Positions 13,363 through 25,666 of a DNA stretch of 33,624 nucleotides are shown piece after piece. Location: the IMG/VR virus record IMGVR_UViG_3300030399_000056, positions 1-33,624 of that record; one strand, 5' to 3'. Every line of letters starts with the position of its first letter. The stretch's first letter is position 1. A model generated the notes under the pieces. It searched no databases. It was not told where the DNA came from and saw only the letters and a program-made list of their open reading frames with translations. This DNA comes from a virus. The translations under genes and the position numbers were made by a program.

Positions 13363-13402
13363 CCAAATTGTCTGGTGGGGAATACTACCGCGCCTCGGTT
13401 TA

Positions 13403-13427
13403 GCCTAACGTTCTTCGGGACTTAGGC
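13403..13427 (+). other. UUCG hairpin followed by TTTGGTGGT
   Basis: GCCTAA, bulged C, GTTC, loop TTCG, GGAC, TTAGGC. It is followed (13428-13440) by A then TTTGGTGGTGAAAG-like sequence, almost the same as the segment after the UUCG hairpin at 489-506. Confidence 0.6.
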
Positions 13428-13584
13428 ATTTGGTGGTGAAAGCAGTGAGTAAAGGTTTCTCCCGTAGATATACGGATGCCGTTCGAATCGGAAAAGTAAG
13501 CGGATGCGCTGAAAGACTATGGTAGTTCTTGGGTTCGATTCCAATATGCGTTCTGCATATGATAAGGTGATAGTTTAGGTTTAT

Positions 13585-13617
13585 AGCCTGCCCGATCTGC
13601 GATAGTGACGGCAGGCT
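13585..13617 (+). terminator. Stable hairpin just before the tmRNA
   Basis: An 8-bp stem, AGCCTGCC (13585-13592) with GGCAGGCT (13610-13617), then TAATTT. It ends 6 nt before the tmRNA 5' end. It could terminate upstream transcripts weakly or serve as a processing or stability element for the tmRNA precursor. Confidence 0.5.
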
Positions 13618-13623
13618 TAATTT

Positions 13624-13916
13624 GGGGATGACTGGAATTGACGGGATAGAGAATGATAATGTTACAGTAGCACAATGGTATTATAGTGCTTATAATGTAT
13701 ACCAAATAATAATCGATAACTCTAACGAGTATCGCATGGCAGCCTAAGAGGCAAGAAGCGACAATCAATAGTTTACCTGAACTTAAAACAGGTTGGTGGA
13801 TTCTCAACCCTAATCGGTTGACCCTTTAATAAGCAGCTATGCTCTAAATAGCTAAACTGTAAGAAATACATTGTTGTTACTATGACTGGACGAGGGTTCG
13901 AATCCCTCCATCTCCA
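13624..13916 (+). ncRNA. ssrA: Phage-encoded tmRNA (one-piece), tag DNSNEYRMAA
   Basis: The 5' end GGGGATG (13624-13630) pairs with CATCTCC (13909-13915), giving an acceptor stem with the G3.U pair that AlaRS requires. The D-like region is ACTGGAATTGACGGG. The T-arm is GAGGG-TTCGAAT-CCCTC (13892-13908), followed by discriminator A13916; CCA is not encoded. A pseudoknot precedes the tag: AGCAC / GTGCT (13669-13673, 13686-13690) interlocks with GGTATTATA / TATAAT...TACC. The tag frame starts at GAT 13715 after TAATC and reads DNSNEYRMAA, TAA at 13745-13747. Downstream hairpins include ACCTG / CAGGT, TCAACC / GGTTGA and AGCTAT / ATAGCT. It rescues stalled ribosomes and marks their products. About 293 nt; shorter than most cellular tmRNAs. 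Confidence 0.9.
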
Positions 13917-13926
13917 CAGAAACATT

Positions 13927-13960
13927 AGGGCGGTGTAGCGCAAGGCAAAGCCGCCCTTTA
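13927..13960 (+). terminator. Terminator after the tmRNA
   Basis: AGGGCGG (13927-13933) pairs with CCGCCCT (13951-13957), followed by TTAATT. The T tract is short, but the position 10 nt after the tmRNA 3' end fits termination or 3' trimming. Confidence 0.6.
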
Positions 13961-20074: not shown

Positions 20075-22860
20075 TTGCTCACTTTCTCCCTTAATCCCGG
20101 TACGCCGGTTTCCAAATCTTCTTTAAGGTATTTGCCTAAACCTTGTTTGTTATTTGGTTTTCGGGTATTTTGGTTCATGGGTCTGAATGTTATAGGACTG
20201 CCATTTTTAGTATCTGTAACCTCTGCAAGCTGATTTAAAAAAGATGGGGTTACTTCCCCTTTTACAACATCGCCAACATACTTATTAAAAGCAGTTGATC
20301 TTCCACTTAATAATGCATCTGATATTTGTTTAGCGCCTTCTGCTAATGGTATGTTTTCAGATACCCCACTTGCTGTCCCTAAAAATGCGCTTTCAAACCT
20401 ATCATCCTTGTTCAAATTTTTATCTAATAATTTCCTAAATGTAGCACCAATTTGCATAGCTTGAAAAACGGGATGCTCTGTCATCCATATAGGTATTTTA
20501 GCATCTCCTATCATGAATTGGTCAGGATTAGCTTTGCTCTTGCTTTCTTTATATCCTTTTTGATAATAGCCGCCAATATTTTTAGGTGGAGCAAAAAATC
20601 CAATCGCTAAAGCCGCTCCCCCTACGCTCCCCCGTTTTAAATTTTTTAGGACTATATCAGCCTCGTCGGGACTTAATTCGCCCATACCCTTATGCATGAA
20701 TTTCGCTAATTTAATAGCACCTGCTTCTTTTAGAGCCGATGAGGCATATACGCGCCCGACTTTGGCTAACCCTGCTGTTAACCCAAATGAGTATCTTAAA
20801 GTTTCTGCTGCTATATTTGATGGAACCTTAACAAATGGGAATAGAACCCTCGCCAACCCTCCAACAAACTTAGAGTATGGGTTATCTCTCGTTTCTAAAT
20901 ATTTAACCGATTGTTCATAGGCGTTTGATAAATGGTTGTCGCCCATAAAAATAGCCTTTTCCGCATCTTTATAAGCATCCAGTCTATATCTTGCATCAAT
21001 GATAGGGTCTGTGATGTCCACGCCAGCCTGTATGCCCTTAGCCAGTCTTTTGGCGTATGACTTTTCCCAAATAAATCGCTTAACAGGCGCTTTAATAGCA
21101 GAGTGGATATGTCCAAAAAATTCGGCTGCCTCTGCGGGAAGTTTGCCATTTTTTCCATACAATGCGGATATGTCTGATTGTTTTCCTTTTGATGAACGAA
21201 TTTCATCATAAGCATCTTTCATCCCTTGTGTAGCCGCCCTCGCATAGGCTTGGGTAAAATTCTTTACAGATTTGCCCTCTGTTATTTCATTTGCTGCCTT
21301 ATTTTCTTTTCGAGATACAGAGCCTTCATAGGAAGATTTATCAGCTATTTTCTTAAATACCTTGCTAAATCCCCAACCTACACCCTCTTGAACTGGCTCT
21401 AACCCAGCTGTTGTAAGTCCAGCAAGACCCAATTTACCAATCACAGTAACAGATGCCAACTTTGCCTGTCTGCCATATTTTACAATAAGGTTGCCTATTT
21501 TTGAAGCAGCCCCCTTTTTAGAGTTGGCAATATCTTCCATCCGCTTATTCAACTTCGCCTGTTCCCTGTTTATCTCTGCACGAATATGCAGGTAGTCATT
21601 ATCAACCTGTATTTTGGAGTAAACCTTTTTCTCATAGTTGCCCGATTTCAGGTCGGCAAGTTTCGTTTCCTGCCGTTTCTTTGCTGAGGAAAGCCGTTCG
21701 AAGTTCTTTTCATGCAGGTACTTATCAAATTCGTTTTTAATAGCATCCTCTACATCGTCCCTGTGTATGCCGTCGTATTTATCTTTAAAATGTTCATTAT
21801 ATATTTTATCGGCTACCTGCGCAATGCTTACAGCGCCATCCATAACGTAGTTACGGGCGAGCTTAGCAAGTGTTGGCAACATCTCAATGGGTATCTTATT
21901 AGCCCCTGCCGTCTTTAGGCTATTACGTGCGATTGTATGCAATTCGGCAACCAAATCTTCCCGTTCTTTACGTAGTGATGCTTTGGTGGTGGTTCGCTTG
22001 GCTCTCCTATCCTCAAATTCGGCATTTCGCTTAACCTCTGATATGGTATTTTTATCAGATAGCTTACGTATTTGTTCCTCTCGGTCGGCAAGTTGATTTT
22101 CAAGGTTGGCAATGCGTTTTGAGTGTTCGGCTAATTTGGATTTAGTCGCTTCATCTACATCTTCCCCACCATTGAATAATTTGGCACGGCGAAGTAGTGT
22201 AGCAAGTGAATAATCTGATTTCATCAGTTGTCGCCTGTATGCCAATGACCGCCCTGCAACATTACCCGCTAATTCAGTAGCCTTTCGGTTCTGTTCAAGT
22301 AGGTCTTCGTTACGTGAGTATTCGGCTTGATTTTCGGCGTTATGTGTTGGGTCGGTATCGTTTAATATAGCATTTTGTCTGTTATTCAACCGTGTTTTAT
22401 GATATAGCAAAGCCGCCTCGTCTTCTGCGGTTACGGATTTTTTCTTACCTGAAATAATATCTTTTGCGAGGTCGTTAGGGTCTGTTTCACCGCTATCAAC
22501 CATGCGCTTGCCCTCTTTGTCAATATCGGCAAATGATTTACGTTCACGGGCTATGTTTGCATCCCGTTCTTCCGCTACATCGGCATTTCGGATGCCCGTT
22601 AGTCTTTCTTCTTTTTCTTCACCCGTACTGGCAGTTTCTTCCCTTTCGGAGTTTCCTTTTGAAACTCCTTCGCTATCTTCGGCTTTTGGCTGTACAGGTA
22701 GACTCTCTGCGCTCGACTTTTGAAAGGCATAATCTATTGATTTAAGATATTTTTGATTATTTTTTTCCTGTTCATCAGATAAATCCAAATTAGATATTAA
22801 ATCCTTTATGAACTTTTCTTTAGGTATTTCCTCACCTGCATATTTTACGGTGCAACTCAT
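20071..22860 (-). CDS. Large virion/ejection-type protein, 929 aa
   Basis: MSCTVKYAGEEIPKEKFIKD opens with a short beta module typical of mid-protein segments in phage polyvalent proteins. Residues about 60-460 are highly charged and helical. A Gly/Ala-rich stretch (TVIGKLGLAGLTTAGLEPVQ, about 475-495) and a later one (SVGGAALAIGFFAPP, about 755) could enter membranes. The C-terminal half, with DARYRLDAYKDAEKAIFMGD and SKFVGGLARVLFPFVKVPSN, resembles large internal virion proteins that leave the capsid with DNA. It starts at the end of a homing endonuclease gene, and may be the C-terminal part of a split protein. Role inferred, not shown. Confidence 0.6.
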   Translation of the reverse strand: MSCTVKYAGEEIPKEKFIKDLISNLDLSDEQEKNNQKYLKSIDYAFQKSSAESLPVQPKAEDSEGVSKGNSEREETASTGEEKEERLTGIRNADVAEERDANIARERKSFADIDKEGKRMVDSGETDPNDLAKDIISGKKKSVTAEDEAALLYHKTRLNNRQNAILNDTDPTHNAENQAEYSRNEDLLEQNRKATELAGNVAGRSLAYRRQLMKSDYSLATLLRRAKLFNGGEDVDEATKSKLAEHSKRIANLENQLADREEQIRKLSDKNTISEVKRNAEFEDRRAKRTTTKASLRKEREDLVAELHTIARNSLKTAGANKIPIEMLPTLAKLARNYVMDGAVSIAQVADKIYNEHFKDKYDGIHRDDVEDAIKNEFDKYLHEKNFERLSSAKKRQETKLADLKSGNYEKKVYSKIQVDNDYLHIRAEINREQAKLNKRMEDIANSKKGAASKIGNLIVKYGRQAKLASVTVIGKLGLAGLTTAGLEPVQEGVGWGFSKVFKKIADKSSYEGSVSRKENKAANEITEGKSVKNFTQAYARAATQGMKDAYDEIRSSKGKQSDISALYGKNGKLPAEAAEFFGHIHSAIKAPVKRFIWEKSYAKRLAKGIQAGVDITDPIIDARYRLDAYKDAEKAIFMGDNHLSNAYEQSVKYLETRDNPYSKFVGGLARVLFPFVKVPSNIAAETLRYSFGLTAGLAKVGRVYASSALKEAGAIKLAKFMHKGMGELSPDEADIVLKNLKRGSVGGAALAIGFFAPPKNIGGYYQKGYKESKSKANPDQFMIGDAKIPIWMTEHPVFQAMQIGATFRKLLDKNLNKDDRFESAFLGTASGVSENIPLAEGAKQISDALLSGRSTAFNKYVGDVVKGEVTPSFLNQLAEVTDTKNGSPITFRPMNQNTRKPNNKQGLGKYLKEDLETGVPGLREKVSK

Positions 22861-23582
22861 ACAAATTTAAAATTATACCCTTTATAACTTTCCTTTTTAT
22901 TATTGCAAATAAAACTAATTTGGTGTTTATAATTTCTGAATGTTTTATGAATCGCCAGTTCGTGGCAATTAAATAATTGGCGAACACATTCGCATATAGA
23001 ATTATATTTTATGTTATTGTTTATACAAAGCACTTGTTTTGAATGTGGCTTTGTGTTATAAGTGTTTTCCCTATGAGATTTTGATAGTGGAACATTTTTC
23101 TTTGCTTCTGATATTAGCAATTTGGAAGCATTCTTATGCTTACGCCCTTTCCAAGTTGTATTCCCTGTAAATCTTTCGCTAACAATCTTTTTTTGTTCGT
23201 TAGTTACTATATAACCGACTGCGTTTTTATTTCCAATCATTTTATTAGAAATAGCCGTTTTTTGTTCAGTGCCCATATTAAACCCACCATCGCCACCATC
23301 TGTTAAATTAACTAAAGTTCCTTTAGTTAAATCCGACCGACCATACAGTTCTATAAATTCTTTTTCTTTCAGAAAAATCAACTCCAAATTATCACTCTCT
23401 ATTAATATATCAACTCGATATTGAGTTTTATTTATAATATTTATCCATCGGCTTGTACGTTGTGATTTTTTAAAAGCCCTTTGATAATCTTGTTCAAAAC
23501 TATTCCTAAAGCGTCTTGTGCCAATTCCTATATAAAATGGTTCATTTTTATCAAGTCTAATATGCCTATATACGAAATACAT
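22857..23582 (-). CDS. GIY-YIG homing endonuclease with NUMOD repeats
   Basis: 241 aa from ATG 23582 (MYFVYRHIRLDKNEPFYIGI); ATG 23591 is possible but overlaps the preceding gene. GIY-YIG signature: VYRH (the GIY position) at 4-7, FYIGIGT at 16-22, conserved Arg in RRF, and Glu in LEKEF-like helix FLKEKEFIELYG. After it come NUMOD3-like DNA-binding repeats (GTEQKTAISNKMIGNKNAVG; TNEQKKIVSERFTG) and a NUMOD1-like segment (SKQVLCINNNIKYNSICECV). It cuts DNA to copy itself into alleles lacking it. It sits exactly between two virion genes, overlapping the downstream ATG by 4 nt. Confidence 0.85.
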   Translation of the reverse strand: MYFVYRHIRLDKNEPFYIGIGTRRFRNSFEQDYQRAFKKSQRTSRWINIINKTQYRVDILIESDNLELIFLKEKEFIELYGRSDLTKGTLVNLTDGGDGGFNMGTEQKTAISNKMIGNKNAVGYIVTNEQKKIVSERFTGNTTWKGRKHKNASKLLISEAKKNVPLSKSHRENTYNTKPHSKQVLCINNNIKYNSICECVRQLFNCHELAIHKTFRNYKHQISFICNNKKESYKGYNFKFV

Positions 23583-23584
23583 TT

Positions 23585-25666
23585 TTAACAATTAATCTTT
23601 AATATACCACTTTTTTCTAATTTACGCAAATAAGCCTCAATATTTACCGTATTTAAATTGTCCTTCAATCTTGATAAATCTTTAGGATCTGATTTTTCAA
23701 AAAGGTCTGAATATTTTGGCTCTTGAATGGCATTATCTTGTGGTTTAACAACAGGCGGCTCATCACCGCCCGTTAAATTCAGCTCTTTCCGCCCTTCATC
23801 ATCGCTCCCGCTTTCTTGTACTGCGGGTTCATTTTCCCCGACGGTTTGCCCGGTTTTACCTTCATTTTCAGCTTCGGTGGACTGTCCACTTTCCCGCCCA
23901 GTGTTCTTACTTTCATTTTGATTTGTTTTTGATGTACGTTCTAAATTTTCTAATTCATATCTGGTCGGGTCGATTTCTTCCCGCTGGCCATTCGTTGTTT
24001 TGAAAAACTTACCATCCTCTTCACCTGTTCCCTTTGAGTATGTAGTCCGCTCTCCTGTAACAATATTACGCAATTTATCGTTTGCTTGTTCGATTTTATC
24101 GGATAAATAAGTTTCCTGTGCGTTTGGCAGGTCTGCGAGGGATGGGTCGAGGGTTTCTTTTTGAGCCTGCACCTTAGCCAACCTATCCTGTAAGTCGTTT
24201 CGGTTCATTACCAAATCAACCGCATCTGCTTTTTTATCGGGTGCAATATTGCGTGGCAATGTTTTCGCTGCATCCGCAATAGCATCAACATGTTTTAACG
24301 TAGCATCCGTTTGTTCAGGTGTCCACTCATTTTGTTGAGCGTGTTTGGTTAGTTTTTGCTTAAGGTCTGAAACATTCTTTTCCGATGGGTCATTCATTAA
24401 TGATTCAGCCACATCGTTTTTATAACCTGAATTTGGAAATAGTTTACTTAATGCGCCAATAGCGGGCAAAGCAGAAAATATTGGTGCATCTTGTGTTAAT
24501 GCTTTCATTTCACCACTTGCAAGGTCGCCTATATTCTCATTGAATACGGGCTTGTCGTTCAAAGCATCAACTGCTTTATGCAATCCGAAGTTAGCTACAT
24601 TTAGTTTAGTAAAAGTCTTCGCTGTTTCAAGGTGATGTGACATAGCCTCAATAGGCGCTTGTTCAAACTTTTGGGCGAACTCTTGCGCCTTACCTGATAG
24701 CAGCGATTTAAAAGCACCCACTTCCATATCCTTCCCCGCCGCATCTTTTAAGGCATCTGCCGCTATTCCTGACACAATGGTCGATTTTGCTGCATTTGGT
24801 ACCTTAGCCCCGTTAAAAACATCCGTTAATAGTAGGTTTACCACACCTGACCCTTGTATTAATGCTTCTTTGGCAACAGGATTGGATATGTTAAGTTTAT
24901 TAGCCAAATCACTACCCTGACCCAAACCTTGCAAATACATCATAGCTTTTGGCGCATCTGCGGCTTCACCACCTGCAACAGCCGGGGCAAATTCTGCCAT
25001 CATGCCTGCGGTAGACAATATGCGCCCACCCGTACCTTTCTCCATCCTATCCTGATCGGCCTGCGTTAGCCCGTAATTAGCTAATTTATCAAGTTTGTCA
25101 AACGTATCTTTTGTTGGGTCGAAGCCTGTTATTGCCCCTGATGGATTAGTAGCTAAATTAGCTAAATGTGCAGCACCCTTTAAAACATCTAATGAGCCTT
25201 TGGTTGCCTTGCTTCCCAAATAAGCTACGGTGCCTAACGTTTTACCCATCGGTGTTTGCATGAACTTATAATGGTCTTCTACATCTTTGGGAGTTTGAAA
25301 TATTTCGGCTGATGGGGCAATAATATCCTTTGCCTTTTGCATAGCTGCTTTAGCCTCCGGGTTGAGTTGATTTATATTTTCATCTAAACGTGCCGATAGT
25401 TCATCCCTGTGCTGCTGTTGAGCTTGCGCATAGGCGTTATCCTGTTCGTTTAACCTACCTCGCTCCTTTGGGTCGGTAACAGGGGAATTAGTAAGCGGGG
25501 GGAAATTTTGGAAATTGTTTAAGCCATTGATGGATGAGGGAGGCGTAGATGGTAAAACGGGTGTAGAAGCTTTTTTTTTTACCTCATACTGATCCCAATC
25601 ATTCTGCTGTGGTGCAGTTTTAGCAGGTGTTTTTACTTCGTATTGACTCCAATCGTCTTGTGGCAT
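23585..25666 (-). CDS. Virion/ejection-type protein, 693 aa
   Basis: The N-terminus holds two copies of DW(S/D)QYEVK (residues 5-12 and 23-30), then a low-complexity Pro/Gln linker. Residues about 150-420 are Ala/Gly-rich and helical (GGRILSTAGMMAEFAPAVAG), a pattern of internal virion proteins that reach membranes. The last third is polar and acidic (SKNTGRESGQSTEAENEGKT). It ends in LEKSGILKINC next to a homing endonuclease, so it may be the first half of a protein continued in the 929-aa gene. A run of ten A (coding strand) lies near residue 31. Confidence 0.6.
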   Translation of the reverse strand: MPQDDWSQYEVKTPAKTAPQQNDWDQYEVKKKASTPVLPSTPPSSINGLNNFQNFPPLTNSPVTDPKERGRLNEQDNAYAQAQQQHRDELSARLDENINQLNPEAKAAMQKAKDIIAPSAEIFQTPKDVEDHYKFMQTPMGKTLGTVAYLGSKATKGSLDVLKGAAHLANLATNPSGAITGFDPTKDTFDKLDKLANYGLTQADQDRMEKGTGGRILSTAGMMAEFAPAVAGGEAADAPKAMMYLQGLGQGSDLANKLNISNPVAKEALIQGSGVVNLLLTDVFNGAKVPNAAKSTIVSGIAADALKDAAGKDMEVGAFKSLLSGKAQEFAQKFEQAPIEAMSHHLETAKTFTKLNVANFGLHKAVDALNDKPVFNENIGDLASGEMKALTQDAPIFSALPAIGALSKLFPNSGYKNDVAESLMNDPSEKNVSDLKQKLTKHAQQNEWTPEQTDATLKHVDAIADAAKTLPRNIAPDKKADAVDLVMNRNDLQDRLAKVQAQKETLDPSLADLPNAQETYLSDKIEQANDKLRNIVTGERTTYSKGTGEEDGKFFKTTNGQREEIDPTRYELENLERTSKTNQNESKNTGRESGQSTEAENEGKTGQTVGENEPAVQESGSDDEGRKELNLTGGDEPPVVKPQDNAIQEPKYSDLFEKSDPKDLSRLKDNLNTVNIEAYLRKLEKSGILKINC

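Follow-up and report, generated by a model that had tools for sequence, protein, structure and literature searches.

A complete one-piece tmRNA gene in a phage of probable Bacteroidota host encodes a tag of a kind found in Bacteroidota cells

The window, i.e. the whole stretch of DNA analyzed here, is an IMG/VR virus record of 33,624 bases and represents a fragment. PHROG matches comprise a virion structural protein, a short tail fibre, an endolysin as well as HNH and homing endonucleases; further matches point to a DNA methyltransferase and to repressor families. In addition, a crAss muzzle C-terminal domain was detected just above the Pfam cut-off, and a tail protein with a pectate-lyase fold is present. 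The carrier is a tailed phage, probably with a host in the Bacteroidota. One homing endonuclease (phrog_314; 22857-23591, minus strand) is inserted between two large structural-side genes. In positions 1-250, the stretch of highest G+C content in the window (0.58), a unit of about 27 bases (AACAGCGCAACATCGGGCTACGGTGCA) is repeated in tandem; it encodes repeats of nine residues within an ORF that lies at the edge of the contig. L005 is a fragment of 6.7 kb from the structural region, nearly identical in sequence and lacking the tmRNA described below.

Within the whole window ARAGORN called a single tmRNA, 294 nt long and with the tag DNSNEYRMAA* (Table 1). Its end lies one base beyond the one given in the initial annotation (13916), the extra base being the first C after the discriminator A13916. 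The gene belongs to a plus-strand run of small genes and is flanked by an ORF of 114 aa and by a protein of 213 aa that matches phrog_12193, a phage family of unknown function. For this 213-aa protein one viral relative was found, with no tmRNA call in its stretch read, and none was found in 297 genomes of the phylum by a search run without a positive control.

Table 1. Features of the tmRNA locus, with positions counted in the window.
Feature	Position	Strand	Basis
Hairpin just 5' of the tmRNA (z -3.8)	13586-13617	+	Folding vs shuffles
tmRNA gene, one-piece (standard form), ssrA-like	13624-13917	+	ARAGORN; RF00023
Acceptor stem 5' arm GGGGAUG, pairing with CAUCUCC 13909-13915	13624-13630	+	Sequence, RF00023 alignment
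D-loop analogue CUGGAAUUGAC	13632-13642	+	RF00023 alignment
P2 distal 5' arm UUACAGU, pairing with ACUGUAA 13856-13862 (7 bp)	13662-13668	+	RF00023 alignment
Pseudoknot 1 (H-type): S1 13669-13673/13686-13690, S2 13677-13681/13699-13703	13669-13703	+	Sequence inspection
Frame-setting sequence UAAUC, immediately 5' of the resume codon	13710-13714	+	Sequence vs PMC2481249
Tag reading frame GAU...GCC UAA, DNSNEYRMAA + stop (UAA, 13745-13747)	13715-13747	+	ARAGORN
3' structural domain, reduced: ACCUG/CAGGU hairpin at 13775-13793; UCAACC/GGUUGA hairpin or small pseudoknot at 13804-13821	13775-13821	+	Folding, coordinates
T-arm GAGGG-UUCGAAU-CCCUC, perfect	13892-13908	+	RF00023 alignment, coordinates
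Terminator-like hairpin GGGCGG...CCGCCC + UUUAAUU, 3' of the tmRNA (z -3.2)	13927-13957	+	Folding vs shuffles

The covariance model RF00023 matches over its full length (1-374) with 61.4 bits, clearly above the curated gathering score of 47 bits (E = 7.8e-22 for the whole window, E = 1.8e-25 in the per-genome search), and is the sole Rfam match in the window at curated thresholds. The tmRNA strand moreover has a more stable fold than its dinucleotide shuffles (z = -2.73). Chance is ruled out as the source of the match. Both ARAGORN and Infernal thus bear out the initial annotation, which had read a tmRNA gene from the letters, and the acceptor stem with its G3.U pair, the T-arm, the pseudoknot, the tag frame and the stop that it described can all be located. 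A permuted, two-piece form was considered and rejected: the corresponding model RF04321 reaches just 16.8 bits on part of its length, and the 5' and 3' ends stand in standard order.

The tRNA-like domain is that of a standard-form tmRNA, i.e. an acceptor stem of 7 bp carrying G3-U70, the alanine identity pair, and a T-arm, without an anticodon arm; the CCA tail is incompletely encoded at the 3' end (CAC AG). Weaker pairs continue the P2 helix in its proximal part, and the stems of pseudoknot 1 are AGCAC/GUGCU (S1) and GGUAU/AUACC (S2). The resume codon GAU at 13715 begins at the twelfth base past pseudoknot 1, which is the spacing found in E. coli (PMC2481249). The sequence preceding it, UAAUC, agrees at 4/5 positions with U85-A86-G87-U88-C89 (UAGUC) of E. 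coli tmRNA and retains U85 and A86, the frame-setting bases there (PMC2481249). As in other tmRNAs of the standard form, the tag closes with a hydrophobic residue and Ala-Ala ahead of the stop. A search for PK2-PK4 yielded one further small pseudoknot candidate alone, at 13791-13821. In its 3' half the mRNA-like domain is reduced, which accounts for the length of 294 nt. Since E. coli tmRNA remains fully active when its PK2-4 are replaced (PMC2481249), this reduction need not argue against function.

Regarding the flanks, the hairpin just upstream could be the terminator of an upstream transcript or a leader-processing element, while the T-run of the downstream hairpin is too weak for a consensus terminator scan. 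No promoter was found near the tmRNA gene, and ARAGORN called no tRNA adjoining it. The 260 nt upstream (13363-13622) contain no convincing gene, have a G+C content of 47% compared to 39% overall, and include a UUCG-capped hairpin as well as two T-loop-like strings, GTTCGAATC at about 13482 and GTTCGATTC at about 13532. An upstream tRNA-like array in this stretch was rejected, as ARAGORN returned no convincing tRNA at normal or lowered thresholds (95-50%). The stretch has no Rfam match and folds no better than its shuffles (z = -1.25). The earlier proposal that the gene sits among structured RNA is therefore borne out weakly, by the two short flanking hairpins and not by the rest of the 260 nt upstream.

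To place the tag, we compared it with cellular tags sampled evenly across the phylum of a Bacteroidota MAG (n = 120); these counts rest on ARAGORN calls, a few of which are plainly wrong (long odd tags), leaving the main classes unaffected. The initial annotation had called the tag unusual, taking ALAA or LAA as the ending of cellular tags. For the Bacteroidota this does not hold: 49/120 tags end in -MAA and 7/120 in -RMAA, and in the order of one genome with an -RMAA tag (G178) the latter ending is found in 14/29 tags, among them DNSYSYRMAA, ANNYEYRMAA and ADNYQYRMAA. The C-terminal residues of the phage tag are thus present in cellular tags. ANNYEYRMAA (L336) shares its last six residues, EYRMAA, with the phage tag, and DNSYSYRMAA has eight of ten residues in common with it. 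The full ten-residue DNSNEYRMAA had no match among the cellular tags sampled, and a literature search for YRMAA and YAMAA strings returned nothing useful. Judged by its sequence, DNSNEYRMAA is an ordinary Bacteroidota tag, because tags ending in -MAA are common in cells of this phylum and -RMAA endings occur among them, and the suggestion that it is cleared differently is accordingly without support.

The 5' end of the gene also has cellular counterparts. A 21-mer comprising the acceptor arm, the D-loop analogue and the following GG is identical in three Bacteroidota MAG contigs (L130, L131, L132), where it lies in chromosomal tmRNA genes that each score above the Rfam cut-off. One of these genes, located beside prfB and holA-like genes, encodes the tag GDSNFAMAA, and in the order of that genome 46/56 tags end in -MAA. 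As a separate observation, in 12/41 genomes of the order of G178 neither RF00023 under strict filters nor the permuted model gave a match. SmpB is present in 11 of those 12 (G088, G170, G189, G222, G224, G227, G229, G230, G231, G232, G238); in these genomes the tmRNA gene may be missing from the draft assembly, intron-bearing or diverged.

That phages carry tmRNAs is already well known. Ten tmRNA phages were listed in 2014 (PMC4131195), a 2021 survey found 402 of 18,146 phage genomes with a tmRNA, stated there as 2.3% (PMC9004378), and a 2025 database holds 79 unique phage tmRNA sequences (PMC11915505). Such genes have been annotated in Cellulophaga, Chryseobacterium and crAss-like phages, and our pattern scan of IMG/VR returned dozens more, alongside prophage-borne host copies; a strict 5' pattern retrieved 3 contigs only, two of them with permuted tmRNAs. 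Like the window, the IMG/VR contigs L002 and L029 (GNTS[LY]AMAA) and L076 and L091 (ANTSAYALAA), the Cellulophaga phages Calle_1 and phi38:1 and mycobacteriophages such as Bxz1 (PMC4131195) carry a complete tmRNA. Tags ending in -MAA recur in phage tmRNAs (GNTSYAMAA, GNTSLAMAA, GEQVEMAMAA). Some of the compared standard-form phage tmRNAs are 297-301 nt long; hence the shortness that the initial annotation had stressed (293 nt) stands as a size but is shared with other phage copies. Only the conserved ends of these RNAs align with the window copy. In the phage collection no close relative matched past the conserved 3' end, and in a rough tree the window tmRNA groups with other phage copies, in clades supported at 0.81-0.89, and has a long branch.

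Two further groups emerged from these comparisons. In crAss-like phages (L323, L324, L325, L327, L328) and Chryseobacterium phage MA9V-3 (L321) ARAGORN called permuted two-piece tmRNAs, with tags such as GNFYVTDYTRIAA, whereas the sampled cellular Bacteroidota genes were called as standard one-piece. The tmRNA of the window likewise differs from the circularly permuted two-piece RNA of phage Melnitz and of crAss-like phages (PMC9004378), with which it shares the phage-borne location. Other phage tmRNAs have long tags (18-27 aa by ARAGORN) with a shared core such as ANMNKVFSLL/ANMSKVFSLI ahead of the degron (ANAQIEANMNKVFSLLREEVAVAA); they are found in L020, L023, L052, L066, L069, L103, L114, L119, L322 and L331, i.e. 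IMG/VR contigs and the Cellulophaga phages Calle_1 and phi38:1. The conservation of this core beyond the degron suggests that such long tags may have a second job.

With the standard tmRNA (RF00023) the window copy has in common the acceptor stem with its G-U pair, the D-loop analogue, P2, PK1, the tag frame with stop and the T-arm. It is shorter than cellular standard tmRNAs of the phylum (347-407 nt), its region after the tag being reduced, and compared to the cellular -RMAA tmRNAs in the order of G178 (363-373 nt) its RNA sequence has diverged. Its covariance score is 61 bits versus 112-181 bits for cellular copies, and given this difference some decay may have occurred. One could thus ask whether the window carries an inert piece of host ssrA, be it a scar left at an att site by an integrating element or a functionless capture in decay. 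The gene ssrA is frequently used by integrating elements, prophages contain fragments of it (PMC9004378), and the score is low. We regard this as quite unlikely: the entire gene is present instead of a 3' fragment, its frame-setting bases, tag, stop, acceptor and T-arm are intact, no integrase was found among the larger predicted proteins scanned in the window, and the tree groups the RNA with phage tmRNAs and not with one host. Another possibility, which we consider doubtful, is a trimmed, fast-evolving phage lineage of tmRNA in which the host-type degron is retained but much of the pseudoknot domain on the 3' side is gone, an RNA adapted to win SmpB and stalled ribosomes from the host tmRNA in the course of infection.

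A tag deliberately unlike that of the host, by which tagged proteins would be spared or cleared by another protease, might be argued from the unmatched full-length DNSNEYRMAA and from the long, odd tags of other phage tmRNAs. It is very improbable in view of the unchanged EYRMAA of cellular Bacteroidota tmRNAs, which includes the part read by ClpX, and of the frequency of -MAA in the phylum and its recurrence in phages. Least credible to us is a decoy whose main effect is to tie up SmpB or to compete with the tmRNA of the host, thereby holding back host rescue. For this there is a precedent in mycobacteriophage DS6A, whose tmRNA consists of the tRNA domain only; a tmRNA cut down to its tRNA-like domain inhibits that of the cell (PMC4131195, PMC11915505). 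While the window gene is indeed shorter than cellular ones, it retains the mRNA-like part, complete with a stop and a tag frame that is correctly set; a decoy could do without this part.

We therefore favor, with a probability of about 0.85, a complete, ordinary one-piece tmRNA of a tailed phage with a probable Bacteroidota host, acting in ribosome rescue through the host machinery. The gene holds all parts for alanine charging, SmpB binding, frame setting and a tag with stop; expression, charging, tagging and a benefit to the phage are what we infer from these parts. After transcription and trimming, the RNA would be charged by host AlaRS. As the record encodes no SmpB, host SmpB would be needed for its delivery to ribosomes that have stalled on broken mRNA, although SmpB could be encoded beyond the record, since the contig is a fragment. 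Such broken mRNA might arise from mRNA decay in infection or from RNA-cleaving defences of the host. The ribosome would then move to the tag frame, add Ala and DNSNEYRMAA, terminate and be recycled. Because the ending is normal for Bacteroidota cells, the tagged fragment would probably be directed to the usual ClpXP-type protease of the host. The phage would thus gain extra ribosome-rescue capacity and no new degradation code. In line with the initial proposal that the phage supplies its own trans-translation, the phage tmRNA is confirmed and the recycling of ribosomes appears as its most plausible role; roles of a similar kind, upkeep of the hijacked translation machinery or recycling of host proteins, have been proposed for another phage tmRNA (PMC9004378).

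In conclusion, one more phage of probable Bacteroidota host joins the known carriers of a ribosome-rescue RNA. Tag endings need to be judged against the phylum of the host, where -MAA and -RMAA are ordinary in the case of the Bacteroidota, and a phage tag that appears odd by the standard of E. coli is no evidence for a new degradation route.
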